Part shown: positions 536 through 32,911 of the stretch, in pieces | Position numbering within the stretch: position 1 is the stretch's first letter | How the letters are laid out: each line of letters begins with the position of its first letter | Source: Verrucomicrobiales bacterium | GTDB taxonomy: Bacteria; Verrucomicrobiota; Verrucomicrobiia; Limisphaerales; UBA1100 | DNA: 33,167 nucleotides | NCBI GenBank assembly: GCA_005809105.1 | Contig: SYLI01000076.1 | Span: forward strand, 1 to 33,167 | Direction: 5' to 3' | Position numbers and translations under genes: made by a program | Notes under the pieces: generated by a model | Told to the model about the DNA's origin: nothing | Seen by the model: only the letters and a program-made list of their open reading frames with translations | Databases searched by the model: none

Positions 536-2893
536 CTACTCGGGCTTCATCTCGTGATAACGATCGATGGCGGGCTTCTCCAGTCGCGACACGCGGCCGT
601 TGGGCCAGCGCACTTCGACAAAGTCAACCGTGCCATTGGACCCCAGACCGAATTGGCGCTGGTTGGCATGCTGCGCGCGGAATGAATCGCCCGTCACTAG
701 TTGCGCGACGCTTTCCTGACCGTCGGTGCGGCGCAGGCGGATGCGCGCCCCCACCGGGGAATATCCGCGCCCGTGTTCACGCAGCCGCACGCCAATCCAG
801 TGGTGCTCGTTCACGCCATGGTTGCGATAGAGATGCAAGGTTTGGGGGCGCGACGCGTGCGCCGGATCCCAGCCGTACTCCACCATGAGCAGATCAGCCC
901 GGCCGTCCGAATCCAAGTCGTCCTGAATGAGGCTGCGGGCATCAAATTCCTGCCCCCAACCCATGAGGAATGCCACGTTGAGATAACGCCCGCCGCCCTG
1001 GTTGAGGAAAAGCACCTTGTGCTCGAAGCCGTTCCACGAAATTTCCTGCAACGTGGGGAAGGTGGTTTGGCTGAAGACCTGCCCCAGTGTCTGCGGCTTG
1101 CTGGACTGCGGCGTGTAGATGTCGTGCCTCCAGAAGGTGGTGCAGTAGTCCTTGACGGTCTTGCGGCTGAGATGGCCGTTGGCGACTGCGATGTCCAGAT
1201 CGCCGTCCAAATCGAAGTCGAACGCCGCGCAGCCCCATGACCAGCCGCTGCGCGCCAGTAAGTCGTTGTAGGGCGCCTGCCGCAGCCCCTGCGCGCCGCC
1301 CAGCAACAGCCGGTTGCCGTAGCCCAATTTCATGCGGTGGTCGTTGAGTTCGGGCAGATCCTTGCGCCCCAACCCCATCGCCTGCAGCCGCCGCGCCGTG
1401 GTCGATCCCATGCCGGTCATGTAAAGGTCCAGCCGGCCGTCGCCGTCGAAGTCGGCGATGGCGTGCGACATGCCAAATCCAAACCGGTCCTGCCCCATCT
1501 GGGCCGTGATGTCGGTGAACTTGCCCCGGCCGTCGTTGAGGTACACATCCACGCCGGCGAAGTCATTGATGGTCACCAGATCCAAATCGCCATCGCCTTC
1601 CACATCATAGAAGGACGTGCTGTAGGTTCGCCGCCGCTGCCTCACCGACAAGCCCGACGCCGCCGTGGCCTCGGTGAATCCGCCCTTGCCGTCGTTGATC
1701 AACAGGCTTGAGGGCCATCCATCGTTGGCATCGTAATAGGGAGTGGGGAACTGCCCGTCGTTGTAGGGCCCTTGATATTGGGACACCCACAAGTCCAGAT
1801 CGTGGTCGCCGTCAATGTCGCCTGCGGCGATGGCGAAGCAATTCTTGAGCGGCTCCGGCAGCGCAATCACCCGCCGCGCGCCTCCAAATTTGCCCGCACC
1901 GTCGCCTTCCACCAAAACCGGCATCGCATCGCGGGGCGTGAGGAACAGATCGGCATTTCCGTCGCCGGTAAAGTCCGCCAGCACGGCGCAGCTCACTCCC
2001 TGGAGCGGCTGCGTCAAGAGCGGTTCGGGCTTCATTCGTCCGCCCCCCTCATGGCGCAGCAGGAGGTTGCTGCCCGGCAGCACCACCTCCGAGGGCCCGT
2101 CGCCATCCAGATCGTAGGCCAAGAGCGGCATGGCGGGCGGATCACCCTGGGCTTGGGGCGCAAGCGACCGCACCACCTCCAGCATGGGCAGCGAAGCCCA
2201 TTGGCGCAGCGGTTCCGGGCCTGCGCGCTCCATCACGATGAGATCCACCGGCTCCAGGGTGTCGACGAGGCGCGCGCCCTCTTTGTCCGGCTGCGGCTTC
2301 CACGTCACCTTGAGTTTCCCGCGCGCGATGTATCGCATGGGCGGTTGCGCCTGCACCGCATGCAGCTCGAAGGAAAAGAGGGACTCGGCGCGGCCCGACT
2401 CGATGCGGAAGGACTGGTGGTGAAATTCGTTTTGCACGATGTCAATCTTGAGCGAGCCCAGCCAGTCGCGGGCCTGCTCGCGGGTGAAGACGCGCGGTGC
2501 GCCTGTGTGCGGCGTGAGTTGAATGCCCCAGTCGAGGCGCTGAACGGTGCCCGCCGCCGGAAGGCGCAGCGTGTCAAAGGAGAGCAGCTCGAAGGGGTTG
2601 GCCTTGGCGCCCTTTTCGCGCATCGCATCGGAGAGGGCGATGAAAGGCTCCTCGTGTTTCTGCGCCTGCTCCTCGCGCTCCCACAGGGTGCGGTCCAGTT
2701 CCGCGCGCTGGTCGAGCAGCACCTTGGCTTCGGCGCCGACGGCCCCCGGCTGGATCACCGGGGCACCCTTGCTCGATGGCGACGGCGGTTCGGGAGGGAC
2801 GGGCGGCTTGGGACGGCTGCACGCCACCCAGTCAAGCAATGCCAGCAGCAGAAGCAGCTTCAGGCTGCGGTGAAGCGGGGCCAAATCGTTCAT
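536..2893 (-). CDS. Seven-bladed FG-GAP/VCBS lipoprotein with ASPIC/UnbV domain (paralogue 1)
   Basis: A predicted outer-surface or periplasmic lipoprotein of 785 aa. The N-terminus is a signal peptide with a lipobox ending at Cys25 (WVAC). A Pro/Ser-rich linker follows, then a charged probably helical segment (about 55-95) shared with the next two genes, then a domain of unknown function. From about residue 260 there are seven calcium-type loops in the pattern DxDxDGxxD (DLDGDGPSE, DFTGDGNAD, DIDGDHDLD, DVEGDGDLD, DFDGDGRLD, DFDLDGDLD, DLDSDGRAD), as expected for a seven-bladed integrin-type propeller. The last 90 residues match the ASPIC/UnbV pattern (FGLG...VEVRWPNGR). Its ATG overlaps the upstream stop as ATGA. 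Unlike its two paralogues it lacks the MORN-like segment after the lipobox. The family fold is well supported; the ligand and role are unknown. Confidence 0.85.
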   Translation of the reverse strand: MNDLAPLHRSLKLLLLLALLDWVACSRPKPPVPPEPPSPSSKGAPVIQPGAVGAEAKVLLDQRAELDRTLWEREEQAQKHEEPFIALSDAMREKGAKANPFELLSFDTLRLPAAGTVQRLDWGIQLTPHTGAPRVFTREQARDWLGSLKIDIVQNEFHHQSFRIESGRAESLFSFELHAVQAQPPMRYIARGKLKVTWKPQPDKEGARLVDTLEPVDLIVMERAGPEPLRQWASLPMLEVVRSLAPQAQGDPPAMPLLAYDLDGDGPSEVVLPGSNLLLRHEGGGRMKPEPLLTQPLQGVSCAVLADFTGDGNADLFLTPRDAMPVLVEGDGAGKFGGARRVIALPEPLKNCFAIAAGDIDGDHDLDLWVSQYQGPYNDGQFPTPYYDANDGWPSSLLINDGKGGFTEATAASGLSVRQRRRTYSTSFYDVEGDGDLDLVTINDFAGVDVYLNDGRGKFTDITAQMGQDRFGFGMSHAIADFDGDGRLDLYMTGMGSTTARRLQAMGLGRKDLPELNDHRMKLGYGNRLLLGGAQGLRQAPYNDLLARSGWSWGCAAFDFDLDGDLDIAVANGHLSRKTVKDYCTTFWRHDIYTPQSSKPQTLGQVFSQTTFPTLQEISWNGFEHKVLFLNQGGGRYLNVAFLMGWGQEFDARSLIQDDLDSDGRADLLMVEYGWDPAHASRPQTLHLYRNHGVNEHHWIGVRLREHGRGYSPVGARIRLRRTDGQESVAQLVTGDSFRAQHANQRQFGLGSNGTVDFVEVRWPNGRVSRLEKPAIDRYHEMKPE

Positions 2894-5595
2894 GGCTTGG
2901 GAGAGGGGGCTGCTGGCTTCAACGTGTGATACTGATTGATGGCGGGACGATCCAGCCGGGTCACCTTGCCGTTGGGCCAGCGCACTTCGATGGCCTCCAC
3001 CTCCGAGGCGGCGCCCAATCCAAAGTGCTTCTGGCCCGACTGCTGGCAGCGCCAGCTATCACCCGTGACCACCGCGGCGCGCAGCCGCTTGCCGCCCACC
3101 AACACTGAGACTTGCGCGCCGATGGGAGAATAGCCCGGGCCGTTTTCATGCAGACGAACGCCAATCCAGCGGTTGGGCCCCTCCCACTCATTGCGCAGGG
3201 CGTGCAGATAATTGAATTGCTCGCCCTCCTGCTCCGACCAGCCAAAGCGGCCCACGAGCAGATCCTGGCGGCCGTCGCCGTCCCAGTCCTCGGAGAGCAC
3301 GCTGCGAGCGTCAAACTCGAATGCCACGCCCATCACCCAGCCGACATTGAGATACTGCTGGCCCGTGGCCGACAGCTCGTTCATGAAGAGCACATTGTGC
3401 TCAAACCCGTTCCACGAGATGGTGTCGAGCGGCTTGAGCGTCTCGGTGAACATCGAACTGATCACCCGGTTGGTCTGTGAGGTGCCCGTGTAGATGTCGT
3501 GGCGCCAGTAGGTGGTGCAGTAATCGCGGCAGGACTTGCGGCTGATGTGGCCGTTGGCGATGTAGAGGTCCTCGTCGCCGTCATTGTCAAAATCCACCGC
3601 GGCCGATCCCCACGCCCAGCCGGTGCGGGCCACCTGATCCTTGAGGGGCTGCTCGCTCAGCCCCCCCGCGGCGCCGTAGTACATGCGGTTGCCGTAGCCC
3701 AGCTTGAGGCGCTTGGCCTGATGTTCGGGAAATTCGCTGCGCCCCAGCTTGAAGCTCTCCAGCCGCCGCGCCGTGGTCGAGCCCATGCCGGTCATGTACA
3801 CGTCCCACAGCCCGTCCCGGTTGAAGTCGGCGATGACGTGCGACATGCCAAACGCGTGGCGGGTGTCGCCCAGCCTGGCGGTGTCGTCGGTGAATTTTCC
3901 ACGGCCGTCATTGAGGTAGATGTCGATGCCCGAAAAGTCATTGACGGTGAGAAGATCCAGATCGCCGTCGTCGTCGAGGTCGGCAAAGGACGCGCTGTAC
4001 GTGCGCCGCGTGCTCTTGGGTTCCAACCCTGCGGCCTTCGTGCCCTCGGTGAAACGCCCGCGCCCGTCGTTGAGCAGCAGAAACGAAGGCCAGCCATCGT
4101 TCGCGTCGTAGTAGGGCGTGGGCATCTGGCCCTCGCCGTAGGGTGGCTTGTACTGGCTCACCCACAGATCCAGATCGCCGTCGCCGTCAATGTCGCCCGC
4201 GGTGGTGGCGAAGGAAATCATCGGCGAAAGGCCGGGTACTTCCACCTGCCGTGCCTCGCCAAACCGCCCGGCAGCGTCAGCCACGTACAACAGCGGCGGG
4301 CCGAAGTTCTGCGCCACGAAAAGATCGGCGCGCCCGTCGCCGTCAAAGTCGGCGAGCACGGCCGAACCCACCTCGCGCGCCGGCGGCTGGCGGCAGAGGC
4401 TGTCCTTCTCGAACCGGCCGCCGCCCTTGTTCCAGAAAAGCAGGTTGGCATTGGCGATCACAATCTCGGAGCGCCCGTCGCGGTCCAGATCGTAGACGAG
4501 CACCGGCACCGCCTTGGGCACCACCTTGCCCTTGCCGCCGGCCTTCCAGCGCGGGGCGATGTCCGGCACATCCTTGCCGGTGTCAAACACCCGGTGCTCG
4601 GAAAAGGCCACCCGCCCCGATCGCTCCTGCACGCGGATCTTCGTGGCGTCCAGCCCGGTGATGGGGTAGAGCCCGCGCAAATCGGGCTGGGCGCCCCAGT
4701 CGATCTTGACGCTGCCATTGACCATGTACCGCGTTTCGCCGCGCGTGGCATGGATGTTGAATCGGAAGGACGAGCGGTAGGGCCCGCCGGGCGTCTCGCG
4801 CGCAAAGGTTTCCTGGTGCCACTCCGTCTCCACGACGCGCAGCCCCGCCTTGCGCTCACCCGCCAGCCACTGGCGCCATTGGGCGTTGGTGAGCCGCTCG
4901 CCGCCGGGTGCGTGCTCCGTCAAGGTGACGCCATCATCGCGCTTCTGACGCTCACCGGGGCGGCCCAGTTGGATGCTCTCAAAGTTCAGCGACTCGAAGA
5001 TCGCCAGGGGATCGCTTGAGGCGCGCAGCGCATCCCAAAAATCAATGATGGTCTCCTCGTGCTTCTGGGCCAGCTCCTCCTGATGCCAGAGGGTCGAGTC
5101 CAGCCGCTGGCGTTCCTGGAATTGCTGCTCCACCTCGCGTGCGAGCTCGTCCTTGAGATCCTCATAGAGCTTGCCGCCGGCGTAGAATCGGCGGACGACC
5201 AGCGTGCCCTCCTGGGAGTATTCGCGCGCCACCCCATCCATCATCCCGGCCTTGTATTGAATCTGCGCCGCCACCCTGCCATTGGGGTGCCACACGGTGG
5301 CCACCCCCTCGCGCCGGCCGGCGACGTAGCTGGCCTCGCCTTGCTTCTTCCCCCCGGCATGGGCCTCCACCATTCCCGAGTAAGGCGCACTGGTGCCCTT
5401 GAGATAATGCAGCCCGTCCGCACGCACCTCGAGGTCATCCACCTTGGGATTTGCGCGAACCTCCGGTTTGCCGGCCCCGTTCTTGCCGGCCTTTTCCTCG
5501 GGGTTCGTGGGGCGCGAGCAGCCCTGCAAGGCCAGGCTCACCGCCACCGCGAGCAGGGAGCACGCCGTTCTCACACATCGGGGGGTTGTATTCAT
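2890..5595 (-). CDS. Seven-bladed FG-GAP/VCBS lipoprotein with MORN-like repeats (paralogue 2)
   Basis: Predicted 901-aa lipoprotein. I place the start at ATG 5595, not at upstream in-frame starts, because it forms an ATGA overlap with the preceding gene and begins a clean lipoprotein signal peptide (lipobox LQGC, Cys26). Residues about 72-145 carry YwqK/MORN-like repeats (YSGMVEAHAGGKKQGEASY, GVATVWHPNGR, GVAREYSQEG). A predicted helical segment follows (145-190, containing LWHQEELAQKHE). The propeller has seven calcium-type loops (DLDRDGRSE, DFDGDGRAD, DIDGDGDLD, DLDDDGDLD, DFNRDGLWD, DFDNDGDED, DWDGDGRQD), and the C-terminus is an ASPIC/UnbV domain. Its family-specific insert DYCTTYWRHDIY and ISWNGFEHNVLFMN recur in both neighbours. 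It is clearly a tandem duplicate of them; function unknown. Confidence 0.85.
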   Translation of the reverse strand: MNTTPRCVRTACSLLAVAVSLALQGCSRPTNPEEKAGKNGAGKPEVRANPKVDDLEVRADGLHYLKGTSAPYSGMVEAHAGGKKQGEASYVAGRREGVATVWHPNGRVAAQIQYKAGMMDGVAREYSQEGTLVVRRFYAGGKLYEDLKDELAREVEQQFQERQRLDSTLWHQEELAQKHEETIIDFWDALRASSDPLAIFESLNFESIQLGRPGERQKRDDGVTLTEHAPGGERLTNAQWRQWLAGERKAGLRVVETEWHQETFARETPGGPYRSSFRFNIHATRGETRYMVNGSVKIDWGAQPDLRGLYPITGLDATKIRVQERSGRVAFSEHRVFDTGKDVPDIAPRWKAGGKGKVVPKAVPVLVYDLDRDGRSEIVIANANLLFWNKGGGRFEKDSLCRQPPAREVGSAVLADFDGDGRADLFVAQNFGPPLLYVADAAGRFGEARQVEVPGLSPMISFATTAGDIDGDGDLDLWVSQYKPPYGEGQMPTPYYDANDGWPSFLLLNDGRGRFTEGTKAAGLEPKSTRRTYSASFADLDDDGDLDLLTVNDFSGIDIYLNDGRGKFTDDTARLGDTRHAFGMSHVIADFNRDGLWDVYMTGMGSTTARRLESFKLGRSEFPEHQAKRLKLGYGNRMYYGAAGGLSEQPLKDQVARTGWAWGSAAVDFDNDGDEDLYIANGHISRKSCRDYCTTYWRHDIYTGTSQTNRVISSMFTETLKPLDTISWNGFEHNVLFMNELSATGQQYLNVGWVMGVAFEFDARSVLSEDWDGDGRQDLLVGRFGWSEQEGEQFNYLHALRNEWEGPNRWIGVRLHENGPGYSPIGAQVSVLVGGKRLRAAVVTGDSWRCQQSGQKHFGLGAASEVEAIEVRWPNGKVTRLDRPAINQYHTLKPAAPSPKP

Positions 5596-8213
5596 GGCCA
5601 TGTAATGTTGTGGTATTGACCCACGGAGGGATTGTCCAGCCGCTTCACCCGCCCGCCGGGCCAGCGCACCTCGATGGATTCGACGGCCGTGGCGTTGCCC
5701 AAGCCGAAGTGGCGTGTGAGTGAATGCTGCGTGGCGTAGGAGTCGCCGCTCACCACCGGCAGGGTTTCGGTGAACCCGGCGCGGCGCAGGGTGATGGTCG
5801 CGCCGTGCGGGGACACCGCGCCTTCGCGCAGGCGCACGCCAATCCAGCGATTGGCCTCGGGCCATTCATTGCGCACGACATGCAGGAATTGGTCGGCGTC
5901 CGAGCAGGCTTCACGCCAGCGGTGTTCGGCCACCAGAAGGTCGGGCCGGCCGTCGTTGTCCATGTCCTCGGCGGCGACGCAGCGCGAGTCAAATTCGTAG
6001 CCCACGCCCGCAAGGTAGCCCACGCTCAGCCAGCCGCGGTGGCGCTGGTTCATCAGCAGCACGTTGTGCTCAAACCCGTTCCAGGAAATGGTGTGCAGCT
6101 GCTTGTGGCTCTCGGCAAAGAACGCGCGCAGCGCGAAGTCCTGCTGCGGCGCGCCGGGCTGGGCGTAGATGTCGTGCCGCCAGAAGGTGGTGCAGTAATC
6201 CTTGGCGGTGCTTCGGCTGATGTTGCCGTTGGCGATGTAAAGGTCGCGGTCGCCGTCGCTGTCAAAATCCACCGGCGTGCATCCCCATGACCAGCCGGTG
6301 CGCGCCACCTGGTCATTGTCGGGCGCCGGTTGAAACCCGCCCCTGCCATCGCCCCGCAACAGCCGGTTGCCATAGCCCAGCTTCATGCGGCTGGTGTTGT
6401 GGGCGGGAAATTCCTCGCGGCCCTTGCCCATGTTGACCAGCCGGCGCGCCGTGGTGGAGCCCATGCCGCCCATGAAGATGTCCATCAGGCCATCACCGTC
6501 AAAGTCGGCCAACGCATGAGACATGCCAAAGCCATACCGCGCGTCGCCCAGCCGGGCGGTGATGTCGGTGAAGTGTCCCTTGCCGTCATTGAGATGAAGG
6601 TCGAGCCCGGAAAAGTCGCTGGCGACCAGCAGGTCCAGATCGGCGTCGCCGTCCAGATCCACCAACGAGGCGCTGTAGGTGCGGCGATTCCGCTTGGTGG
6701 CCAGCCCGGCTTCAACCGTGCCCTCGGTCAGGTTTCCCTGGCCGTCGTTGAGCAACAGATAGGACGGCCAGCCGTCCACCGCATCGTAATAAGGGACGGG
6801 GAATTTCCCCCCTTCGTATGGGGCCTTGTATTGAGCCGCCCAGATGTCGAGGTCGCCGTCGCCGTCCACGTCGCCCACCGTGGCCACCACTGTGTTGGAC
6901 AAGGGCGACGCCGTGACGCTCGCGCGACGCGGAGCACCGTCAAACCGCCCGGACGCGTCGCCAAGGAACAGCGCCGGCGCTTCGTTGGACGGGAAGCAAA
7001 GCAGGTCCGCAATGCCGTCGCCGTTGAGGTCTGCCAATACCGCTCCGCGCACCTTGGCGACAGGGGCGGCGCACAGGCGCGAGGGTTCAAACCGCCCCCC
7101 GCCCGCATTGCGGTAGCGCAGGTTGCAGCCGGGAAGAAGAATGTCGGGAAGCTGGTCGCCATCCAGATCGCGCACCAGCAACGGCTCCACGTAGGCGCCG
7201 GCCGCCGCCTTGGCCAGAGGATTATCCTTGCCCGGATCCAGCCGCGCCCATGTCCGGAAGGGAGCCTCGCCGGGGCGATTCATGAGACGCGCCTGCATGA
7301 GGGTGATGCGGCCGGGCTTGGGATGGCCCGCGGCGTCCTTCTGTGCCGTCCAGCTCACGCCAATCTTGCCACGCAACAGGTAACGCCGCCCGGCGTCACG
7401 CGCGTGCATGTGGAAGTTCAATTCAGAATAGGGCGTCCCACCCTCGCCCTTCGCGGTGAAACGCTCCTGATGCCACTCGGTTTCCTCCAGTTGAACCCCC
7501 GAAGCGCGCAGGCTGCCCAGTGCAGCCCGCCATGCCGCTGGTGTCAGGGTTTCGCCGCCGGGCTCATACTCCACCAACTCAATGGAGGCGTCGTGGCGCG
7601 CGCCGGGCTTGGGGCGGCCAAGCACGAGCTGCTCAAACGCGAATTTCTCGAAGGGCACCCATTTGTCGGCCGCGCTTCGCTGCTCATCCCAGAGGGCCAC
7701 AAACGCCTGCTCGTGCGCTTGGGCCAGCTCCTCCTCGGTCCACAGGGATTGATCCAGCTCGCGCCGCTGCTCTTCCATCCGGTCCACCTGGGCCCGCACG
7801 GCGGCGCCCAGCTGCGTTTTCAAAAGCTTGCCGTCCTCCCAGTTTTCCTCGCGCACGATGCCTCCACCGGCATCAAACTCCCGGCTGAGGCCATGCTGCC
7901 GTCCCCCGGCAAAGGTGAGTTCAAGGTACCGCCATCCTTGCTCATTCCAACGGGTGACCACGCCGTCGAATTGACCACCCCGCATGGCTGCACGCAGCCG
8001 CGGCTTGCCATCGGGATACACCAACTGGGCCACGCCGCTAAAGGGCTGGGACTTGCCCCGCGCATAAAAGACGCCGTCCGCCCGTTGCTCCAAGGACTCC
8101 ATGGCCACGGGCGCGTCGGCTGGGGCGGGGACGGTTGGGGTGGGTGGCGCCGAAGGGTCGCAAGCCGCCAGTCCCAACAGCACTGCCACGCACCATTTGC
8201 CGACCGGATTCAT
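5592..8213 (-). CDS. Seven-bladed FG-GAP/VCBS lipoprotein with MORN-like repeats (paralogue 3, first gene of operon)
   Basis: Predicted 873-aa lipoprotein and first gene of the three-paralogue operon. ATG 8213 is chosen because the lipoprotein signal peptide starts there (MNPVGKWCVAVLLGLAAC, Cys18); the in-frame extension upstream runs through a terminator. A Pro-rich linker leads to MORN/YwqK-like repeats (about 58-130: FSGVAQLVYPDGK, FDGVVTRWNEQG, HGLSREFDAGG), then a helical segment with LWTEEELAQAHE. The seven propeller loops are DLDGDQLPD, DLNGDGIAD, DVDGDGDLD, DLDGDADLD, DFDGDGLMD, DFDSDGDRD and DMDNDGRPD, followed by an ASPIC/UnbV tail. The insert motif DYCTTFWRHDIY is present. No Shine-Dalgarno is visible; a candidate promoter ends 7 bases before the ATG. 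Role unknown; such propellers commonly bind ligands or partners extracellularly. Confidence 0.85.
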   Translation of the reverse strand: MNPVGKWCVAVLLGLAACDPSAPPTPTVPAPADAPVAMESLEQRADGVFYARGKSQPFSGVAQLVYPDGKPRLRAAMRGGQFDGVVTRWNEQGWRYLELTFAGGRQHGLSREFDAGGGIVREENWEDGKLLKTQLGAAVRAQVDRMEEQRRELDQSLWTEEELAQAHEQAFVALWDEQRSAADKWVPFEKFAFEQLVLGRPKPGARHDASIELVEYEPGGETLTPAAWRAALGSLRASGVQLEETEWHQERFTAKGEGGTPYSELNFHMHARDAGRRYLLRGKIGVSWTAQKDAAGHPKPGRITLMQARLMNRPGEAPFRTWARLDPGKDNPLAKAAAGAYVEPLLVRDLDGDQLPDILLPGCNLRYRNAGGGRFEPSRLCAAPVAKVRGAVLADLNGDGIADLLCFPSNEAPALFLGDASGRFDGAPRRASVTASPLSNTVVATVGDVDGDGDLDIWAAQYKAPYEGGKFPVPYYDAVDGWPSYLLLNDGQGNLTEGTVEAGLATKRNRRTYSASLVDLDGDADLDLLVASDFSGLDLHLNDGKGHFTDITARLGDARYGFGMSHALADFDGDGLMDIFMGGMGSTTARRLVNMGKGREEFPAHNTSRMKLGYGNRLLRGDGRGGFQPAPDNDQVARTGWSWGCTPVDFDSDGDRDLYIANGNISRSTAKDYCTTFWRHDIYAQPGAPQQDFALRAFFAESHKQLHTISWNGFEHNVLLMNQRHRGWLSVGYLAGVGYEFDSRCVAAEDMDNDGRPDLLVAEHRWREACSDADQFLHVVRNEWPEANRWIGVRLREGAVSPHGATITLRRAGFTETLPVVSGDSYATQHSLTRHFGLGNATAVESIEVRWPGGRVKRLDNPSVGQYHNITWP

Positions 8214-8220
8214 GAGCAAG

Positions 8221-8249
8221 AGGATAGCACAGGCACTTCTACAGATCAA
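8221..8249 (-). promoter_or_regulatory. Candidate extended -10 promoter giving a leaderless mRNA for the lipoprotein operon
   Basis: On the minus strand, TTGATC (8249-8244) and TATCCT (8226-8221) are separated by exactly 17 bases. TATCCT is preceded by TGC, an extended -10. Each hexamer matches four of six consensus positions. Only seven bases separate the -10 from ATG 8213, so a normal start site would fall at or next to the start codon, consistent with the lack of a ribosome binding site. The -35 overlaps the end of the upstream terminator's T-run. The call rests on consensus matching only. Confidence 0.4.
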
Positions 8250-8289
8250 AAAAAAGCCACCGCAGGGACAAGGATCCTGCGATGGCTTT
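8248..8289 (-). terminator. Rho-independent terminator of the DUF1501 transcription unit
   Basis: On the minus strand, a 14-base arm (8289-8276, AAAGCCATCGCAGG) pairs with 8266-8253 (CCTGCGGTGGCTTT) with one T:G wobble across a 9-base loop, followed directly by an uninterrupted run of eight T (8255-8248). This is a textbook intrinsic terminator. It lies about 150 bases after the stop of the DUF1501 gene and 34 bases before the next start, so it separates the two minus-strand operons. The bases between it and 8437 contain nothing else I can recognise. Confidence 0.85.
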
Positions 8290-8436
8290 GGAGTCTGCTG
8301 ACGAGAGCCAAGGGAACACAGCCTTCGCCAACATAGGATGAGCTCTTTCAAGCCACCCATGTGCTTCGTAGCACACCCCGGAGGCGCCCTCAAGGCGCAA
8401 GGGAGGGTTGTGAACAAGTTGTCGCCCCTTGCACCC

Positions 8437-9909
8437 TCAGGCGAGGATGCCGGAAATGGGATGGCCAAAATCCATCTCGAGGCGCTTGTGCCCGGGCACT
8501 TCCAGAGTCCGCGCGTCCAGCCCCAGCTGATGCAGCACCGTGGCGTGGACATCGGTCACATAATGGCGGTGTTCCACCGCGTGGAAGCCCAGCTCGTCGG
8601 TGGCGCCGTGAACCGTGCCGCCGCGCACCCCGCCGCCGGCCATCCAGATGGAGAACCCGTACGGGTGATGATCGCGACCGTCGCTGTTCTCGGCCCCCGG
8701 CGTGCGCCCGAATTCCGTGGCCCAGACCACCAGCGTTTGCTCCAGCAGCCCGCGCTGTTTGAGGTCTTGCAACAGGCCAGCGATGGGCCGGTCCACCTGC
8801 GCAATGCGGGTGCTGTGATTTTGTTTGAGCTTGGAATGCGCGTCCCAGCCGTCGTCGTAAATCTGGATGAAGCGCACGCCGCGCTCCACCATGCGCCGCG
8901 CGCCCAGCGCCATGCGCCCCATGCGCTGCGTCTCGGGCTTGTCCAGCCCGTACATCTGCCCGGTGGCGGCGCTCTCCGCCGACAGGTTCATGACCTCGGG
9001 CACGGCCATCTGCATGCGAAAGGCCAGCTCGTAGGATTGGATGCGTGCACGCAGCATAGCGTCGCCCGGATCCGCTGCGCCCGCCAGCCCGTTGAGCTCG
9101 CGCAAGAGCTCCAGTTGCGCGCGACGCTCGGATTGGCTCACGCCCGCGCCGGGAGTGCCAAAGGGCAGGGGATTGGCGGGGTCCACCGTCAGCGGCACGC
9201 CCGCATGTTCCGGGCCCAGATAGCTCGCACCGTGCGCACCCACGCCCCCGCAGCATTCGCCGGGACCGCCGCCCATCACGACGAACTGCGGCAGGTTGTC
9301 ATTGAGCGTGCCCAGCCCGTAGCGCACCCACGAGCCCAGGGAAGGGTGGAGGCCATCAAAGATGTGGCGGCCGGTGTGGAACTGGAGCTGCGCGGCGTGG
9401 TCGTTGTCGGTGGTCCACATCGAGCGCACCACCGCCAGCTCATCGGCCTGGCGCGCCAGGTGGGGCCACCAGTCGCTCACCTCCAGCCCACACTGGCCAT
9501 GCCGCCCAAACCCCACCTGAGTGGGGTAGAGCTTGGGCATCAGCGACCGGGGAACGCCGGCAAAATCCCGAACGTTTTTCCGGTAGTACGGAGAGTTTAA
9601 CACCGCCGGGCCGTGGGGCGATTCGTCGAGCGTCATCCCCGCATACCGGGCGAGCGCGGGCTTGGGGTCGAAACTCTCCAGATGGCTTGTGCCGCCCAAC
9701 ATGAAAAACCAGATGACGCTGCGCGCCTTGGGCGCGAACTGCCGGTGGTGCCCGGGCGGCGCGCCGGCGGCCGAAGCGCGCGCGTCGCCATGCAGCAGCT
9801 CGCCCATGGCCAGGCCCGCCAACCCCGTGCCGAAGTCGCCCAGAAACGCACGGCGCTTCATTCGTCCGCAGGTGGGCCTTCGCAAATTGGAAATCCCGGG
9901 CGGCATCAT
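8437..9909 (-). CDS. DUF1501 family secreted protein (alkaline-phosphatase-superfamily fold)
   Basis: About 490 aa. A twin-arginine-like N-terminus is visible (MKRRAFLGDFGTGLAGLAMG, Arg19-Arg20), suggesting Tat export. Family hallmarks include MLGGTSHLESFDPKP near the N-terminus, and AEFGRTPG and GRDHHP in the C-terminal half, the last two typical of the metal-site region of DUF1501 proteins. The family is abundant in Planctomycetota and Verrucomicrobiota and usually sits beside a DUF1549/DUF1553 gene, as here; its reaction is not established. Start choice is uncertain: ATG 9909 lies just after the upstream stop with a weak GAAGGG upstream, whereas ATG 9942 (11 residues longer) would overlap the upstream gene by 23 bases. 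The gene is followed by a strong terminator, so it ends the operon. Confidence 0.88.
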   Translation of the reverse strand: MMPPGISNLRRPTCGRMKRRAFLGDFGTGLAGLAMGELLHGDARASAAGAPPGHHRQFAPKARSVIWFFMLGGTSHLESFDPKPALARYAGMTLDESPHGPAVLNSPYYRKNVRDFAGVPRSLMPKLYPTQVGFGRHGQCGLEVSDWWPHLARQADELAVVRSMWTTDNDHAAQLQFHTGRHIFDGLHPSLGSWVRYGLGTLNDNLPQFVVMGGGPGECCGGVGAHGASYLGPEHAGVPLTVDPANPLPFGTPGAGVSQSERRAQLELLRELNGLAGAADPGDAMLRARIQSYELAFRMQMAVPEVMNLSAESAATGQMYGLDKPETQRMGRMALGARRMVERGVRFIQIYDDGWDAHSKLKQNHSTRIAQVDRPIAGLLQDLKQRGLLEQTLVVWATEFGRTPGAENSDGRDHHPYGFSIWMAGGGVRGGTVHGATDELGFHAVEHRHYVTDVHATVLHQLGLDARTLEVPGHKRLEMDFGHPISGILA

Positions 9910-9919
9910 GAGGTTCCCT

Positions 9920-12900
9920 TCATCGGATGGTGACGAAGTCATGGTGATTCATCAGCACATGCACGAAGTTCTCGCGCGCCCGCAAGCCCGGCTCGGCCGA
10001 CGCAGGCACCCGGGGCGATGGCCCCGCAGCAAACCCGGCACCCGAGGGCTGCGCCAGCGCCACCGATTGGGCGCGCAGAAACCGCGCTCCCGCCGCAATT
10101 TCTTCGCGAGTCGCCGCGCGCGAAAGCACCGCCTCGAAGGAGGCGACCACAAACGCCTCCTCGGACGGCGCCTTGGGCGCCAGCGCACGCGCGAGGGTTC
10201 GCGCCTGATTTAACGCCAGTTCGCTGTTCATCAGCACCAGCGCCTGTTGGGGCATCACGCTCTGCCCTCGCCGGTAGCATTCGGTGGGATTGGCCAGATC
10301 AAACGCCTCGAGCATCGGCATCTGGTGATCGGGCGTGGTGCGAAAATACAGGCTGCGCCGCGCCGAGGTCTGCCCCGATGTATCCGGCAGCTCCGCCCCG
10401 CCCATCGTCAGATCCAAGCCACCGGCCACCGCCAGCAAGCCATCGCGCACCACTTCCGCCTCCATGCGGCGCGGGTTCATGCGCCATAACAGCCGGTTCT
10501 CAGGATCGCGCAACGCCTGGGGTGCCGCGCCCGCCACCGAGTCCCTCCGGTACGCCTGCGAGGTGACCATGAGCCGGTGCAGCGGCTTCATCCGCCATCC
10601 GTTCTTCATCAGCTCCACGGCCAGCCAGTCCAGCAATTCCGGATGGGACGGGGGCTGCCCCGCGACGCCGAAATTGGCCACGGTGGGAACCAGCGCCTGC
10701 CCAAAATGTCGCAGCCAGATGTGGTTCACTGCGACGCGCGCCGTGCGCGGATTGCGCTCATCGCACATCCACCGTGCCAGCGCCAGACGCCGGCCACTGC
10801 TCTGCTGCGGGTAGGCCGGCCCCAGGGGCGTGGGCAACGCGCCGGGGTTGGCCAGTGCCGCCTCCGCCGCGGCCAGCGCCTTTACTGCGGCCGCTTTCTT
10901 GGCGGCGTCGCCGGCTTCGAGCACGGTTTGCCTGGCCTTGGCGAGATTCCATTGAAGCTCTGCGAGGGCCGCCGCGCGCGAGGTTGCAGCGGCATCGAGC
11001 GCGCCGGCCACGCGCGCGCGTTCCGCCGCGACCCGTTTTTGAGCGCAGTCCTGCAGGGCCAATGCCGTGGCCACCTTTGCTCCGGCCAGCGCGTCGGCCG
11101 CGACCGCGGCGTCGGCGGCCGCATCCCAGCCCGCGCGCGTGCGCCCCGCGAAGGGCGTGGGCACGGCGACCGCGACCGATTGCGCGAGCGCAAACTCCGG
11201 CGGCAGCGCGGCCACGCGCAGGTTGTAAAACACCGCGGCACCGCTGTGAACCCACAGGGCAAAGCGCCCGTCGCAACGCGGACGCGGCATGGTGTAGGCC
11301 AGCGCCAGCTTGCCATCCACCCACACGTTGAGCAGCGAACCGCGCGCGGCGATATCCAGCGTCGTGGTTTCGTTGACACGGAGCGGGTGAGGGGCGATGC
11401 CTGCGGCCGGATAGGCCTCCTGCCCCTTCTCACGGTGGAAAGCCTGCACGGTGGAAGCGCCGCCGCTAATGGACGTGTACACGGCCTGGGCGTCGCGCAA
11501 GTCCACCGAGTCGAAGAACAAGCCCACCGAGCGAAAGTTCCCCGGCTCCAAAGTGCGATAGACCACGCGCGCGCAAAAGTCGCGCGGGATGGGGGTCTGT
11601 GCCTCGAGAGTGTGAAAGGTGCCCACGGTCTTTTGCGCAAGCCCCCCCGATTCGTGCACCCACGAGCCGCTGACGATGCGCCACACGTTGGTTCTGGCCG
11701 CCTTGAAGTCGTCCTCCAGAACCGCCCTTGGGCCGGCGGTGGCGTTGGCTGCTCCCGCGAGAAACGCGTCGCGTCCAAGCCGGGCGGCATGAAGCGCGAC
11801 CTCGGCCTTCCGATGCTCGCCTTGCGCCGACTGCACGGCCTTCGCGGCGTTGGTCAGCATTGTCTGCACGAGCGAGGGCTGCAGGGCCGGATAATACGCA
11901 TCCACCGGCAGCGTGACCGGAGCGATGGCGATGGGAATCGCACCCAACGCGGCCGGCGCACCCGGGATGAGTGGCTTTGATTTGTCCGGCTGGCGATCGT
12001 CGCCGCGCTGGAAAAGGTAGGTGGGCGCCTCGGGGGTCGCATCATAGGCACGGGAGAGGCCGGCCATCACCGCCTGCGGCTCGGTGTTTGCCGCCGTGGT
12101 GTCGGGCGCGGCGTCCACCAGATCGGTGCGCACCGAGTGGGGCTCGAAGAAAGCGCGGAACTGGTAATACTCCTGCTGCGAAATGGGATCGTACTTGTGG
12201 TCGTGGCAACGGGCGCAGCGCAGTGTGAGCGCCAGCATGCCCTGTGCGGTTTGCTCGACGGTTTCAAAGAGCCACACGTTGCGGTCAAACTTGTACCAGT
12301 TGCGCCCGAGATAGCCGGTGGCGCGCAGCACCGCGGGATCGGCGGGGGCCACTTCATCGCCAGCGAGCATCTCCGTCAGCATGCGGTCGTAGCCGCGATC
12401 CTGATTGAGCGATTCGATGATCCAGTCGCGCCAACGCCACAAGTGCCGCTGGCCATAGCGAATCTCGTTGCCCGATCCGTACCAGTCGCTGTACCGCCAG
12501 ATGTCCATCCAGTGGCGGCCCCACCGTTCGCCGTAGCGCGGGCTGGCCAACAGCCGGTCCACCACCTTTTCGTAGGCGTCGGGTGCAGCGTCATCGCGGA
12601 AGGCGCGCAATTCCTCCGGCGTGGGCGGCAGGCCGGTCAAGTCTAGGCACACGCGACGCAACAGGGCATCTCTGGGCGCAGGGGCCGCAGCAGCAATTCC
12701 CCGGGCGGCCCGCGCTGCGTCCAGAAACGCGTCGATGGCATTGCCTACGGCGGGCGCGCTGGCCGGCAATGCCGGGCGCTTGGGCGGCTGGAAGGACCAA
12801 TGCTGGCGCGGATCGGCCGGTGGCACTTCGTTCTCCGGGGCCACAGCGCCTCCTACAATCCATTGGGTGATGGCGGCCACTTGCTGCGCCGTCAGCGCTT

Positions 12901-13183
12901 CGCCCTCTGGGGGCATCCGTTCGGCGGGATCGTCGGATGCGATGCGCCGCAACATCGGGCTTGCGGCGGGATCGCCGGGCTTGAAGGCCGGGCCCGACTT
13001 GCCTCCACGCCTCAGCGCGGCAGCCGTGTCGGCGCGAAGGCCGCTCTTCTGCCGCAGTGCGCCATGACACTCGGCGCAGCGGGCGCGGAGCAGAGGCTGG
13101 ATGTCACGCAGGTAATCCACGGCTGCGGGCAACGGCCGCTCCGCAGCCAGCACCACCACGCAGACGAGTGCAAGCCGCCTCAT
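9920..13183 (-). CDS. Planctomycete-type cytochrome c / DUF1549 / DUF1553 protein with LamG-like insert
   Basis: A secreted protein of 1087 aa. Order: signal peptide (1 to about 20); PSCyt1-type c-heme domain with CAECH at 36-40 and a possible axial Met in ERMPP near 90; DUF1549 (about 150-350) containing a second CxxCH-like motif, CARCHDHKYDP at 323-333; a linker; a LamG/concanavalin-like beta-sandwich (about 488-660); a long Ala-rich likely coiled coil (about 675-760); and DUF1553 (about 785-1060, with ARVAVNHIWLRHFG). The family accompanies DUF1501 proteins and is thought to be periplasmic, with a redox or carbohydrate-related role that is unproven. ATG 13183 overlaps the upstream stop as ATGA. 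Family assignment is firm; the biochemical function is not. Confidence 0.9.
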   Translation of the reverse strand: MRRLALVCVVVLAAERPLPAAVDYLRDIQPLLRARCAECHGALRQKSGLRADTAAALRRGGKSGPAFKPGDPAASPMLRRIASDDPAERMPPEGEALTAQQVAAITQWIVGGAVAPENEVPPADPRQHWSFQPPKRPALPASAPAVGNAIDAFLDAARAARGIAAAAPAPRDALLRRVCLDLTGLPPTPEELRAFRDDAAPDAYEKVVDRLLASPRYGERWGRHWMDIWRYSDWYGSGNEIRYGQRHLWRWRDWIIESLNQDRGYDRMLTEMLAGDEVAPADPAVLRATGYLGRNWYKFDRNVWLFETVEQTAQGMLALTLRCARCHDHKYDPISQQEYYQFRAFFEPHSVRTDLVDAAPDTTAANTEPQAVMAGLSRAYDATPEAPTYLFQRGDDRQPDKSKPLIPGAPAALGAIPIAIAPVTLPVDAYYPALQPSLVQTMLTNAAKAVQSAQGEHRKAEVALHAARLGRDAFLAGAANATAGPRAVLEDDFKAARTNVWRIVSGSWVHESGGLAQKTVGTFHTLEAQTPIPRDFCARVVYRTLEPGNFRSVGLFFDSVDLRDAQAVYTSISGGASTVQAFHREKGQEAYPAAGIAPHPLRVNETTTLDIAARGSLLNVWVDGKLALAYTMPRPRCDGRFALWVHSGAAVFYNLRVAALPPEFALAQSVAVAVPTPFAGRTRAGWDAAADAAVAADALAGAKVATALALQDCAQKRVAAERARVAGALDAAATSRAAALAELQWNLAKARQTVLEAGDAAKKAAAVKALAAAEAALANPGALPTPLGPAYPQQSSGRRLALARWMCDERNPRTARVAVNHIWLRHFGQALVPTVANFGVAGQPPSHPELLDWLAVELMKNGWRMKPLHRLMVTSQAYRRDSVAGAAPQALRDPENRLLWRMNPRRMEAEVVRDGLLAVAGGLDLTMGGAELPDTSGQTSARRSLYFRTTPDHQMPMLEAFDLANPTECYRRGQSVMPQQALVLMNSELALNQARTLARALAPKAPSEEAFVVASFEAVLSRAATREEIAAGARFLRAQSVALAQPSGAGFAAGPSPRVPASAEPGLRARENFVHVLMNHHDFVTIR

Positions 13184-15633
13184 TTTTTCTCCACGGGCAG
13201 CCGGCTCTCCAGCGCCGCCGCCATCCGGCCCCAGTAGCCCACGGGGTCCAGGTTCATCACCTCGGCGTAGCGTGTGGCCGCCTGGGCATTCTCGCCGGCG
13301 GCTTCGTGCAAGGCGCCCAATGCCAGCCGCGCCTGAACCGCTTCCAATTCCTGAGGGTGTTGAGCCAGCACGCGCTGGTACGCCACCCGCGCCTCATCGA
13401 GAGCACCGCGTTCCTCCAGACAAGCTGCCAGTCCCAATTGCACGGTGGCAGCCACCGGCGGCAAGGGGCGCGATGCCAGCGACTGGAGTTCTCGTTCTGC
13501 GGCCTGCGGCCGGCCCTCGGCAAAGTGCATCGCCGCCGCCATGAGCTGGGCGCGTTGCGCGGTGAGCGTGCCGGGATGGGCCAGAGCCCATTGCGAGAGC
13601 ACTTCGCCGCTGAGGGCGTTGGTGCCCTGCATGAGCTGCCCAAGCCTGTCGCTGGCGTCGCGCTCGGCCGGTGGCAGGGGGCTGGTGTCCAACCGGCCGC
13701 CTCGCGCCGTCTCGGCCGCCAGACGTTGTTGCGCGCCCTGGTACACGGCCTGTTCTTCCTCCAGTCGCAGGACGGTCTGGTGATGGAGATTTAATTGGGC
13801 CTGCAGGCGCGTCTGCGTGGAGATGGTGGCATTGGTGTCCTTGATGGCCGCGGCCGTCTGCACCAGCTGTTGGCGCGCGGCATTAAGTTCGGCCTTGAGT
13901 TCGGACTGACGCCCGAGCTTGACGTCCAGAAGCATTTTCAGCCGCACCTGCTCCCATTCAGGCAGGAACCACGCCGGCGGCCGCACCTGCGGGCCGCGTG
14001 CCGGAGCCGCCGGCTGGACGATGGGCGCCCTCGCCGCTGAGATACCCTGCTGCCTCAGCCCTTCGGCGTATGCGGGCAGCAATGCGGTGGCATTGGCGTC
14101 GGTCACGGGCACGCGGCGCGCCAGATGGATCATGCGCCCGCCCGAGGGCGTGGCCTCAAACGCCGTCAGAGTGGCGTGGGGGGCGCGGGTGTCGGTGAGT
14201 TCACGCGCCGCCTGCTGCGCGTCGGCCAGCGCGAGGGGCGCCAGAGCAGGCCACTGCGTCTGCAGCAGCGAAAAGGGCGGCAAAGCCTGGAACGTCGTGT
14301 TCGCGTCCTGGCACATGCGTTCAAACCGGTCGCCCTGCTTGAGGCGCGCGGCGAAAATCTGGCGCAGCGCCTTGCCGCGGATTTGTGCGGCGGCCCACGC
14401 CTTGTCCACGCGACAGTCGCGCATGATGAGCAGCCGCCGGTTCTGCGGCAGGGCGGAGAAGGGCGGCAATGACGCCTCCTGACGTTTTAATAGCGCGACG
14501 AGACAAACGGCATCCGACTCGAACACCGGGTCGGGCCAGACGCGGTTTTCCGGCAGGCGCGCCGCCGCCTCGAACGTGTTGGACAGACCCGGCGGCGCCG
14601 TGGCGCCCGCCGCGCCGTCCAACTCCTCCACCCGCAGGGCGGGGCGGCCCGTGTCGGCGCGCACCGCCTCGCGCAATCGCGCCACGTCGGGCAGCGAGCC
14701 CACGAAGATCTGATCGGCCAGTTTCTGAATCCGCTGGTGGGCCAGGAGGGTCGCGCGAATGCGCCCCAGTGCCTGCGCTTCTGCGAGCGGCTTGCCCAAC
14801 GCGTCGGGGAAGGCCGCCGGCCCGTTGTCCCGGTAGATGGCCTTCGCGCTTTCCTCAATCTCAGGCGAGGGCGCGGCGGCCGCCGCGTCCAGAGCCGCGA
14901 AGGGCAATCGCACCGCAACCACACGCAGCGAAGGCGGCGGCCGGTAGCGCGCCGCGTGGTTGGTGTAAAACTCTGCCGCCACCACGTCGTCGACCAGTAC
15001 CTGATCCAGATGATTGGTCGCGGCGACCACCGTCACCTCCATGTAGAACTGCTCGTGGTCGAACTCGAAGAGCCGCCGCGCCACGCGCGAGGGGAGGAAC
15101 GCGCCACCAGCAGCCCTCACCTGATGGAGGTGCGACATCGCCATCTCGGCCTGCGCAAAGCGGGCAAAGTCCTCGCCATCCAACCGGTGCGTGGAAAGCA
15201 CCTTGGCCGTGAACTGCTGGTGGGTCGTGGCGTTGGAAGGCCCGCCCCCGCCCGCGAAGAGGCGATCGGCCGCCGCCAGCGCCACCGTGGGGCTAAACCC
15301 AATGGCCAGCTCGCGCGCGTGTGCGAGGAGTCGGCCGCGGATGTGGGTGTCAAACACCCGACGGTCCATGTCAGGCTGGCCGTCGCCGTCCAGATCCTCG
15401 CCGGGAAGCCGATCGGGCGACTTGGCTCCCTGCAGCAGATAGCCCACGGCAAGCTCGCGGCGCGTGGCGTCTTGCTCCGGGGAGGACGGGGGGGCATTCG
15501 CGGGCGTGAGGGCGGCCGTCGCATTCTGCGAGGGAGGCGGGGTGACGGCAGGCTTTGCAGGTTCGCCCGGGCCACATGCCAGAAATCCCCACACGCCCAA
15601 GACGAAGCACCAGCACCACCGCGCACGCGCCAT
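13180..15633 (-). CDS. Putative SurA/PpiD-like periplasmic foldase lipoprotein with C-terminal TPRs
   Basis: 817 aa. The N-terminal lipoprotein signal has a lipobox at FLAC (Cys20), then a Pro/Ala/Ser linker. An EF-hand-like loop DLDGDGQPDMD follows near residue 80. The middle resembles chaperone and parvulin regions of SurA/PpiD-type isomerases (VLVDDVVAAEFYTNHAARYRPP, then VRLPF), but a clear catalytic parvulin core is not obvious, so it may act as a foldase without isomerase activity. A likely coiled coil lies at about 570-660, and the last 120 residues look like TPRs (LGLAACLEERGALDEARVAY, LGALHEAAGENAQAATRY). The stop overlaps the start of the cytochrome-like gene (ATGA), suggesting it helps export or fold the two proteins encoded after it. 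The family call is tentative. Confidence 0.5.
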   Translation of the reverse strand: MARARWCWCFVLGVWGFLACGPGEPAKPAVTPPPSQNATAALTPANAPPSSPEQDATRRELAVGYLLQGAKSPDRLPGEDLDGDGQPDMDRRVFDTHIRGRLLAHARELAIGFSPTVALAAADRLFAGGGGPSNATTHQQFTAKVLSTHRLDGEDFARFAQAEMAMSHLHQVRAAGGAFLPSRVARRLFEFDHEQFYMEVTVVAATNHLDQVLVDDVVAAEFYTNHAARYRPPPSLRVVAVRLPFAALDAAAAAPSPEIEESAKAIYRDNGPAAFPDALGKPLAEAQALGRIRATLLAHQRIQKLADQIFVGSLPDVARLREAVRADTGRPALRVEELDGAAGATAPPGLSNTFEAAARLPENRVWPDPVFESDAVCLVALLKRQEASLPPFSALPQNRRLLIMRDCRVDKAWAAAQIRGKALRQIFAARLKQGDRFERMCQDANTTFQALPPFSLLQTQWPALAPLALADAQQAARELTDTRAPHATLTAFEATPSGGRMIHLARRVPVTDANATALLPAYAEGLRQQGISAARAPIVQPAAPARGPQVRPPAWFLPEWEQVRLKMLLDVKLGRQSELKAELNAARQQLVQTAAAIKDTNATISTQTRLQAQLNLHHQTVLRLEEEQAVYQGAQQRLAAETARGGRLDTSPLPPAERDASDRLGQLMQGTNALSGEVLSQWALAHPGTLTAQRAQLMAAAMHFAEGRPQAAERELQSLASRPLPPVAATVQLGLAACLEERGALDEARVAYQRVLAQHPQELEAVQARLALGALHEAAGENAQAATRYAEVMNLDPVGYWGRMAAALESRLPVEKK

Positions 15634-23046: not shown

Positions 23047-24167
23047 GCGGTGCCGCCGACAAACGACTCTTTACGCCCGGCCCCATCAACACCAGCCGGG
23101 CCGTGAAGGAAGCCATGCTCCGCGACATGGGATCGCGCGACGGCGAGTTTCTGGCAACCGTGCGCGAGATCCGCCACGAGCTGCTCCGGCTGGCCGGCGC
23201 CACACAGAGCGCAGGATATGAAGCGGTGCTGCTGCAGGGCAGTGGGACGTTCGCGGTAGAGTCGGTCATCTCATCGGCCGTGCCCGAACACGGGACGCTG
23301 CTCGTCGTCAGTAACGGCGCGTATGCCGAACGCATCGGCCAGATCGCTGCGCGCCACCGCATCCCTGCGCGCTTTTTGCGCTGCGCTGAAAACGCCGCGC
23401 CCGACATAGCGGCGCTCTCCGCCACGCTGGCTGACCCTGCCATCACGCACGTCGCGGTGGTGCATTGCGAAACGAGCTCGGGCATCCTCAATCCGCTCGA
23501 CGCCATCGCCGAGCGTGTGCGCGAAGCCGGGGCCGCGCTCATCGTGGACGCGATGAGCAGCTTTGGCGCCTACCCCATCTCGCTGCCCTCACTCTCCGCG
23601 CACTTCATGGTGTCCTCCGCCAACAAGTGCATCGAGGGCGTGCCGGGGTTCGCCTTCGTTCTGGCGCGCCGCGAATCGTTGCTGGCTTGCCGCGATGTTG
23701 CCCGCACCGTGAGCCTGGATCTCTGGGCGCAATGGGACGGAATGGAGCGCACCGGGCAGTTCCGCTTCACGCCGCCGACGCACGCGCTTTTGGCCTTCCG
23801 TCAGGCGCTGGATGAATTGCGCGCCGAGGGCGGCCCCACGGGACGCGCGGCGCGGTACCGCACTCGCCACGCCGCGCTGGTGGCGGGCATGCGCGCCATG
23901 GGCTTTGTCGAGCATGTGGTGCCGGCCTTGCAGAGCCACATCATCACCACCTTCCGATGCCCATCGGAGGCAACGTTTCGCTTCGCCGACTTCTACGAAA
24001 GGCTCTCCTCGCGCGGGCTGGTGATTTACCCCGGCAAGCTCACGCAGGGCGACTGCTTTCGAGTGGGCACCATCGGGAGGATCACCGAGGAGGATATCCG
24101 CGCGCTGCTCGCGGGCATCCGGGAAGTTCTGGCAGAGATGGGCGTGGCCGTGCCGCTGCGCCACTAG
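23043..24167 (+). CDS. phnW: 2-aminoethylphosphonate aminotransferase, biosynthetic direction
   Basis: 374-aa class V PLP-dependent aminotransferase. Key features: FTPGPINTS at 10-18, LLQGSGTFAVES at 63-74, HCETSSGILNP at 141-151, VDAMSSFGAYP at 168-178 (Asp169 toward the PLP ring) and SSANKCIEGVPGF around Lys195 (the expected Schiff-base lysine). PhnW homologues usually degrade AEP with pyruvate as acceptor. Behind a PEP mutase and a phosphonopyruvate decarboxylase, this one most likely runs the other way, aminating phosphonoacetaldehyde to AEP. Length is normal for the family (about 370). It starts within the decarboxylase stop (ATGA). Its stop TAG shares the palindrome CTAG (24164-24167) with the stop of recD on the other strand, leaving no room for a terminator. 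Confidence 0.93.
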   Translation: MSGAADKRLFTPGPINTSRAVKEAMLRDMGSRDGEFLATVREIRHELLRLAGATQSAGYEAVLLQGSGTFAVESVISSAVPEHGTLLVVSNGAYAERIGQIAARHRIPARFLRCAENAAPDIAALSATLADPAITHVAVVHCETSSGILNPLDAIAERVREAGAALIVDAMSSFGAYPISLPSLSAHFMVSSANKCIEGVPGFAFVLARRESLLACRDVARTVSLDLWAQWDGMERTGQFRFTPPTHALLAFRQALDELRAEGGPTGRAARYRTRHAALVAGMRAMGFVEHVVPALQSHIITTFRCPSEATFRFADFYERLSSRGLVIYPGKLTQGDCFRVGTIGRITEEDIRALLAGIREVLAEMGVAVPLRH

Positions 24168-32867: not shown

Positions 32868-32880
32868 GGATGGGGGGTTG

Positions 32881-32911
32881 CTTATCACAAGGCTTGGGTC
32901 GTGCCAGTCAA
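32881..32911 (-). promoter_or_regulatory. Weak candidate promoter for recCBD
   Basis: Minus strand: TTGACT (32911-32906, five of six -35 matches), a 19-base spacer, then GATAAG (32886-32881, four of six) preceded by TGT as an extended -10. Thirteen bases remain before ATG 32867, giving a leader of only about six bases. The spacer is longer than ideal, so confidence is low. No other promoter-like pair is visible between recC and the VOC gene. Confidence 0.25.

Follow-up and report, generated by a model that had tools for sequence, protein, structure and literature searches.

Among the described systems closest to the proteins treated here are CRTAC1 and the prokaryotic selenoproteins. CRTAC1 is a secreted animal protein that is not known to be catalytic. 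Planctomycetota, Verrucomicrobiota and Acidobacteriota have many FG-GAP/ASPIC proteins, which are usually annotated as CRTAC1-like and have no function assigned. Of the prokaryotic selenoproteins, 119 families were tabulated in May 2026, including those of Haft and Tolstoy 2025; most of the characterised families have a thioredoxin-like fold, and no FG-GAP/ASPIC propeller is among the 119 (PMC13188914). Full-text searches of the literature gave, among the papers listed, no link of FG-GAP, UnbV, ASPIC, CRTAC1 or VCBS to bacterial selenoproteins. It is likely that the putative propeller selenoproteins S1 and S2, which are introduced below as sister families of the proteins of this locus, are new to the literature.

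The window, that is the whole stretch of 33,167 nucleotides that was analysed, carries three adjacent propeller genes:

536..2893, minus strand: gene A, 785 aa; lipoprotein-like signal, NTF2-like domain, seven-bladed FG-GAP propeller with a Cys insert, ASPIC/UnbV tail
2890..5595, minus strand: gene B, 901 aa; lipoprotein signal (LQGC), MORN-like repeats, NTF2-like domain, seven-bladed propeller with a Cys insert, ASPIC/UnbV tail
5592..8213, minus strand: gene C, 873 aa; lipoprotein signal (LAAC), NTF2-like domain, seven-bladed propeller with a Cys insert, ASPIC/UnbV tail

The longer open reading frames at 2890-5865 and 5592-8552 are upstream extensions of genes B and C. The A/B and B/C junctions overlap by 4 bp each and all three genes lie on the minus strand, which bears out the tightly coupled operon that had been proposed in the initial annotation. 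The same holds for its description of three paralogous seven-loop propeller lipoproteins with an ASPIC/UnbV tail: FG-GAP_3 of Pfam matches all three proteins with E 1e-35 to 1e-38 and UnbV_ASPIC their C-termini with E 1e-14 to 1e-16 (53-59 bits versus a cut-off of 23.4), the alignment has exactly seven loops of the D-x-[DN]-x-D type in each protein, and the pairwise identities are 46.0, 46.4 and 47.7%. The lipobox-like signal sequence is clear in B and C and weaker in A (WVAC). Gene A has no MORN-like repeats, and the N-terminal repeats of gene C align with those of gene B. None of the NCBIfam models matched the window proteins or the S1 protein of the same genome.

An AlphaFold2 model of protein B, built from 65 sequences, reached a pLDDT of 91.4 and a pTM of 0.85, and the solved structure nearest to it is murine CRTAC1 (9etn; VIA Z 35.5, 2.8 A over 454 residues; Foldseek E 1.5e-26). 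The likeness covers the seven FG-GAP-type blades together with the UnbV_ASPIC tail, whereas the lipoprotein signal, the MORN-like repeats (in B), the NTF2-like domain and the Cys insert are additions of the window proteins. Residues 140-345 of B are predicted to share the NTF2/ketosteroid-isomerase-like fold, with a VIA Z of 11.9 over 124 residues to 3rob and with NTF2/KSI-like folds making up most of the match list, and no Pfam family matched this part of the window proteins. The domain is conserved across the whole subfamily and carries an invariant E258-x-H260 (B numbering). An N-terminal block LWxxEExAQxHE that had been noticed as shared by the trio is indeed present in all three proteins, but it is not specific to them, being the first helix of this subfamily-wide domain.

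Upstream of the triplet and in the same direction lie further genes:

8437..9942, minus strand: DUF1501 gene, which precedes the triplet in sister genome G001 as well
9920..13183, minus strand: PSCyt1/PSCyt2/PSD1 gene (planctomycete-type cytochrome c), syntenic in G001
13180..15633, minus strand: TPR-repeat protein with a YbgF-like C-terminus

In G001, which belongs to the same genus, the propeller genes and the genes upstream of them, three each, are in synteny with the window. Each propeller gene of the window shares about 70% identity with its counterpart there, and the tree joins every window gene to its own orthologue at full support, which places the triplication before the split of the two genomes. 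Tandem arrays of 2-4 copies are found elsewhere in the family, with four copies in G003, four in G019 and two or more in others. In the tree the four copies of L102 group apart, together with L096, and arrays thus seem to have been expanded more than once. The paralogues are therefore co-conserved and not scattered single genes, which supports the initial annotation on this point. The TPR protein is a candidate partner of the propellers, a homologue of it being located directly beside the four-copy array of G003, where DUF1501 and PSCyt genes are missing. Among the 77 named loci (L092-L168), sulfatase-like genes occur within three open reading frames of a propeller gene in 17, mostly on the same strand, and PSCyt and pilin-like neighbours are frequent; all three kinds are common in these phyla and were given no weight as clues to function. 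Farther along, the window carries RecD- and RecB-type genes (24164-25957 and 25954-29619) and a third large open reading frame (29616-32888) that may be recC; the three together would be a cluster of the RecBCD type in a genome of the Verrucomicrobiota.

The insert of about 62 residues sits between propeller blades 6 and 7, and its position in the three genes is as follows:

998..1183, minus strand: insert of gene A, aa 571-632; conserved Cys584, codon TGC
3370..3558, minus strand: insert of gene B, aa 680-742; conserved Cys693, codon TGC
6045..6233, minus strand: insert of gene C, aa 661-723; conserved Cys674, codon TGC

The motif DYCTT[FY]WRHDIY ... ISWNGFEHxVLxxN with its lone cysteine, as first described from the letters of this DNA, was found in all three proteins, and all three conform to the wider subfamily motif D[YH]C..[FY]W..[DE] followed by SW[ND]G[FY]E. 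That the insert lies outside ordinary FG-GAP/ASPIC proteins was confirmed, as none of the other ASPIC proteins encoded in this genome has it. By sequence comparison, the insert defines a subfamily across several phyla and is non-standard for ASPIC/UnbV proteins; members come from assemblies that bear the names of Verrucomicrobiota, Planctomycetota, Acidobacteriota, Gemmatimonadota and Latescibacterota, and further ones in assemblies named as Myxococcota, Hydrogenedentota, Kapaibacteria and Gammaproteobacteria. The metal-loop motifs aside, some of the best-conserved positions in the family lie in the insert, and His residues near the Cys site are mostly conserved. R764, W697 and W728 (B numbering) are invariant, as are E258 and H260. 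In 51 relatives that were selected by motifs elsewhere in the protein, with the Cys site unused, the position is Cys in 48 and Glu in the other three. The Glu type (DYETxFWxHD) forms a clade of 15 sequences in the tree that is nested inside the Cys group and has one origin, and it reads SYGGYEKN where the Cys type reads SWNGFEHN (members include L061, L136, L163, L164 and L168). Asp takes the place of Cys in at least six further paralogues (EDYDSIYWRHDIY or similar; L056:4771-7659, L057:10306-13191, L039, L040, L042 and L037), and those of L056 and L057 are near a Cys-type copy; the Asp paralogues are possibly catalytically different or inactive partners. There is no second conserved Cys in the insert of the Cys forms, so an internal disulfide is impossible there. 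In the model of B, a short helix (693-698) begins with Cys693, and the N-terminus of a short helix is a common setting for a reactive Cys or Sec.

The genome of the window encodes, outside the window, a distant paralogue (on contig G000:C46) that reads KPDG-UGA-PCLWQ at the insert. It belongs to S1, one of two sister families with an in-frame UGA: S1 proteins have about 930 aa and PDG-U-[PS]CLWQ at the site, S2 proteins about 1200-1300 aa and mostly GDL-U-S..WR. Such S-type genes were found in 27 of the 293 genomes of the order (Verrucomicrobiota), and the in-frame TGA is present in all 34 copies that reach the site, with coding sequence on both sides; a 35th match, an N-terminal fragment, covers query 161-442 and so stops short of the site. 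Each copy has one TGA, with the exception of an S1 gene in G157 (G157:C62:1217-3511, L197) that has two, one of them at the conserved site; in that genome neither SelA nor SelB nor tRNA-Sec was found at the thresholds used. As gene callers read UGA as stop, an S-type gene will probably have been annotated as two fragments. In profile alignments with hhalign, C693 falls on the UGA of both S1 (E 6e-63) and S2 (E 5e-61), which is why the window Cys is regarded here as the Cys side of a Cys/Sec pair. The window genes themselves, with TGC at the position in all three and no in-frame UGA there, are Cys forms and not selenoproteins. Cys orthologues of S1 or S2 were sought in the fetched loci and none was found, so the Cys/Sec exchange is one between sister subfamilies and not within one orthologue group.

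Phylum-wide, a search of a sample of 337 Verrucomicrobiota genomes at E 1e-60 gave S-type genes only in the genome of the window, and within Verrucomicrobiota S1 and S2 thus look confined to this order. S2 is also present in some Planctomycetota (L101:12456-16358 and L133:12248-16012), each gene with an in-frame UGA and each directly downstream of a window-type Cys gene, an adjacency that suggests a Cys/Sec propeller pair. At its C-terminus S2 has a domain with a WCxPC motif that fits the models of AhpC-TSA/Redoxin and ResA, and TPRs together with this AhpC-TSA/ResA-like domain are found in the Planctomycetota S2 as well as in the verrucomicrobial S2 proteins that were examined. S2 in this respect resembles thiol-disulfide oxidoreductases of the ResA/TlpA type, with the difference that the domain is fused here to a selenocysteine-type propeller; the window proteins do not have it. 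Of the hints that the Cys/Sec position may be thiol-reducible, this fused WCxPC domain is the best.

A 6-bp hairpin starts 11-14 nt past the UGA in both families, with GGCUGU-CGUGUC-ACAGCC in S1 and GCGGCA-GGUCG-UGUCGC in S2, of which variants occur; the apical loop is of the GGU type in most S2 genes and CGUGUC or CGUGGC in S1. All cells (100%) pair in the S1 and S2 stems, as compared to 18-72% in slid controls. Covariation comprises two pairs with both-sided changes in ten cells for S2, and one pair in two cells for S1. Conserved amino acids within the S1 hairpin keep the same codon at a rate of 0.72 versus 0.41 elsewhere in the gene (0 of 20,000 resamplings), and the corresponding constraint is weaker in S2 (P 0.044, two columns). 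In 75 Cys-type genes the S2 stem has at most 4 of 6 pairs and the S1 stem reaches 5 of 6 in one gene; as the stems are not formed in these genes, the codon constraint on the W-R/Q residues does not explain the hairpin. An Rfam search of the S1 locus at a permissive threshold gave chance matches only, and no library model thus covers the SECIS-like hairpin of S1. A recoding of the UGA as Trp or Gly, and also a reading of the UGA genes as pseudogenes, were rejected on the conservation and hairpin data.

On the contig of its own genome (G000:C46, L078), the S1 gene is placed beside a complete set of genes for tRNA-Sec, SelA, SelB and SelD:

2349-5141, plus strand: S1 gene, ends 4 bp from selB
5145-7058: selB
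5145-10518: Sec operon selC-selD-selA-(transglutaminase-like)-selB

After selB, the transglutaminase-like gene, selA, selD and tRNA-Sec follow on the minus strand. A transglutaminase-core gene is described in the Sec operon of the Rhodopirellula planctomycete P2, an arrangement that the text of that source calls unknown elsewhere (PMC4807772). The operon on C46 is a verrucomicrobial one that has a transglutaminase-like gene, too.

SelA was found in 20 of the 27 S-type genomes versus 69 of the 266 others (one-sided Fisher P 1e-6, kinship being ignored). Two of the seven S-type genomes without SelA (G020 and G181) have tRNA-Sec 1.6 kb from S2, so that SelA or tRNA-Sec is present in 22 of the 27; the remaining five, with neither SelA nor tRNA-Sec nor SelB above the cut-off, are incomplete or fragmented assemblies (67-93% complete). 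In G000, G001, G016, G201, G236 and G244, selA lies within about 5 kb of an S-type gene, and in G247 at about 10 kb. Both Planctomycetota genomes with S2 (L101 and L133) have SelB and tRNA-Sec. A formate dehydrogenase alpha subunit of the window's genome (G000:C43:22841-24847, L199) has one in-frame TGA (RA-U-HSPTV) and is an independent selenoprotein candidate, serving as a positive control. S1 and S2 are thus like known prokaryotic selenoproteins in having a UGA, a SECIS-like hairpin, sel genes and Cys-form relatives, and there is a strong case that their UGA encodes selenocysteine.

With a probability of roughly 60%, the triplet is the Cys form of an exported CRTAC1-like family in which the insert Cys is an active-site residue, likely for thiol/selenol chemistry, and for which S1 and S2 use Sec. 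The insert between blades 6 and 7 would be the active-site element and the Cys at the N-terminus of its helix the functional residue; in S1 and S2 selenocysteine would occupy the same place, being put in at the UGA by means of the SECIS hairpin and the sel operon. The chemistry would most likely be redox, by analogy with other Cys/Sec pairs, and it would act on a periplasmic substrate or on one at the surface or outside of the cell. The oxidised residue may then be reset by a thioredoxin-like partner, which in S2 would be the fused domain. The tandem copies may be versions of one enzyme that are specialised, perhaps with separate specificities, or they may form a single complex as its subunits. 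The broader proposal goes slightly beyond this and is held with a little less confidence, although it is still favoured: the CRTAC1/ASPIC propellers would include a large unrecognised enzyme superfamily with a catalytic Cys/Sec between blades 6 and 7, S1 and S2 would be new selenoprotein families in it, and triplets like the one in the window would be Cys-based members.

The replacements at the site make it conceivable, though less likely, that the residue at the Cys/Sec/Asp/Glu position binds a metal or is the covalent nucleophile of a non-redox enzyme, for instance a carbohydrate lyase or hydrolase on a propeller scaffold. Acidic residues in otherwise similar paralogues, namely in the Glu clade and in the Asp copies, suit metal binding or the part of a hydrolytic nucleophile no less than a redox role; the mostly conserved neighbouring His would agree with it, and the fold matches of B include propeller enzymes such as aldos-2-ulose dehydratase (Z 20.2-20.3). 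The sulfatase genes near named loci point in the same direction, but sulfatases are very common in these lineages and their vicinity is thus weak evidence. Selenoproteins with an assigned function, however, are mostly redox enzymes (PMC13188914), and the fusion of S2 to a thioredoxin-like domain argues for the redox reading as well.

It is rather improbable that the triplet encodes non-catalytic ligand-binding lipoproteins in which the Cys has a structural role or serves for attachment, a reading close to the set of ligand specificities proposed in the initial annotation. FG-GAP/ASPIC propellers do resemble CRTAC1 and lectins, tandem paralogues are frequent among surface binding proteins, and in Acidobacteria the gene adjoins a TonB-receptor-like gene, but the sister families appear to pay for selenocysteine at exactly this residue, and the high conservation within the insert likewise counts against this reading. 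The Cys/selenocysteine pair points to chemistry at the insert, beyond ligand binding alone. That the UGAs are ordinary stops, sequencing errors or part of another reassigned code, with no selenoprotein at all and an accidental link to the Cys, is very improbable, as the same UGA is found in 34 copies of the order, flanked by coding sequence and followed by a covarying hairpin, as tRNA-Sec and SelA/B/D are encoded beside the S1 gene of the window's genome, and as this S1 gene also ends in UGA, which is thus not a general sense codon.

The preferred reading, an active-site Cys or Sec in the insert, has consequences for the whole group of proteins. The conserved Cys/selenocysteine position turns the vague annotation as CRTAC1-like into a testable active site, and an active site in the insert is thereby suggested for a protein class that has been thought to be only a binding scaffold. 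If this is true, the propeller scaffold would be added to those of the selenoproteins, and it also suggests what some of the sel operons of Verrucomicrobiota that sit beside S-type genes are used for.
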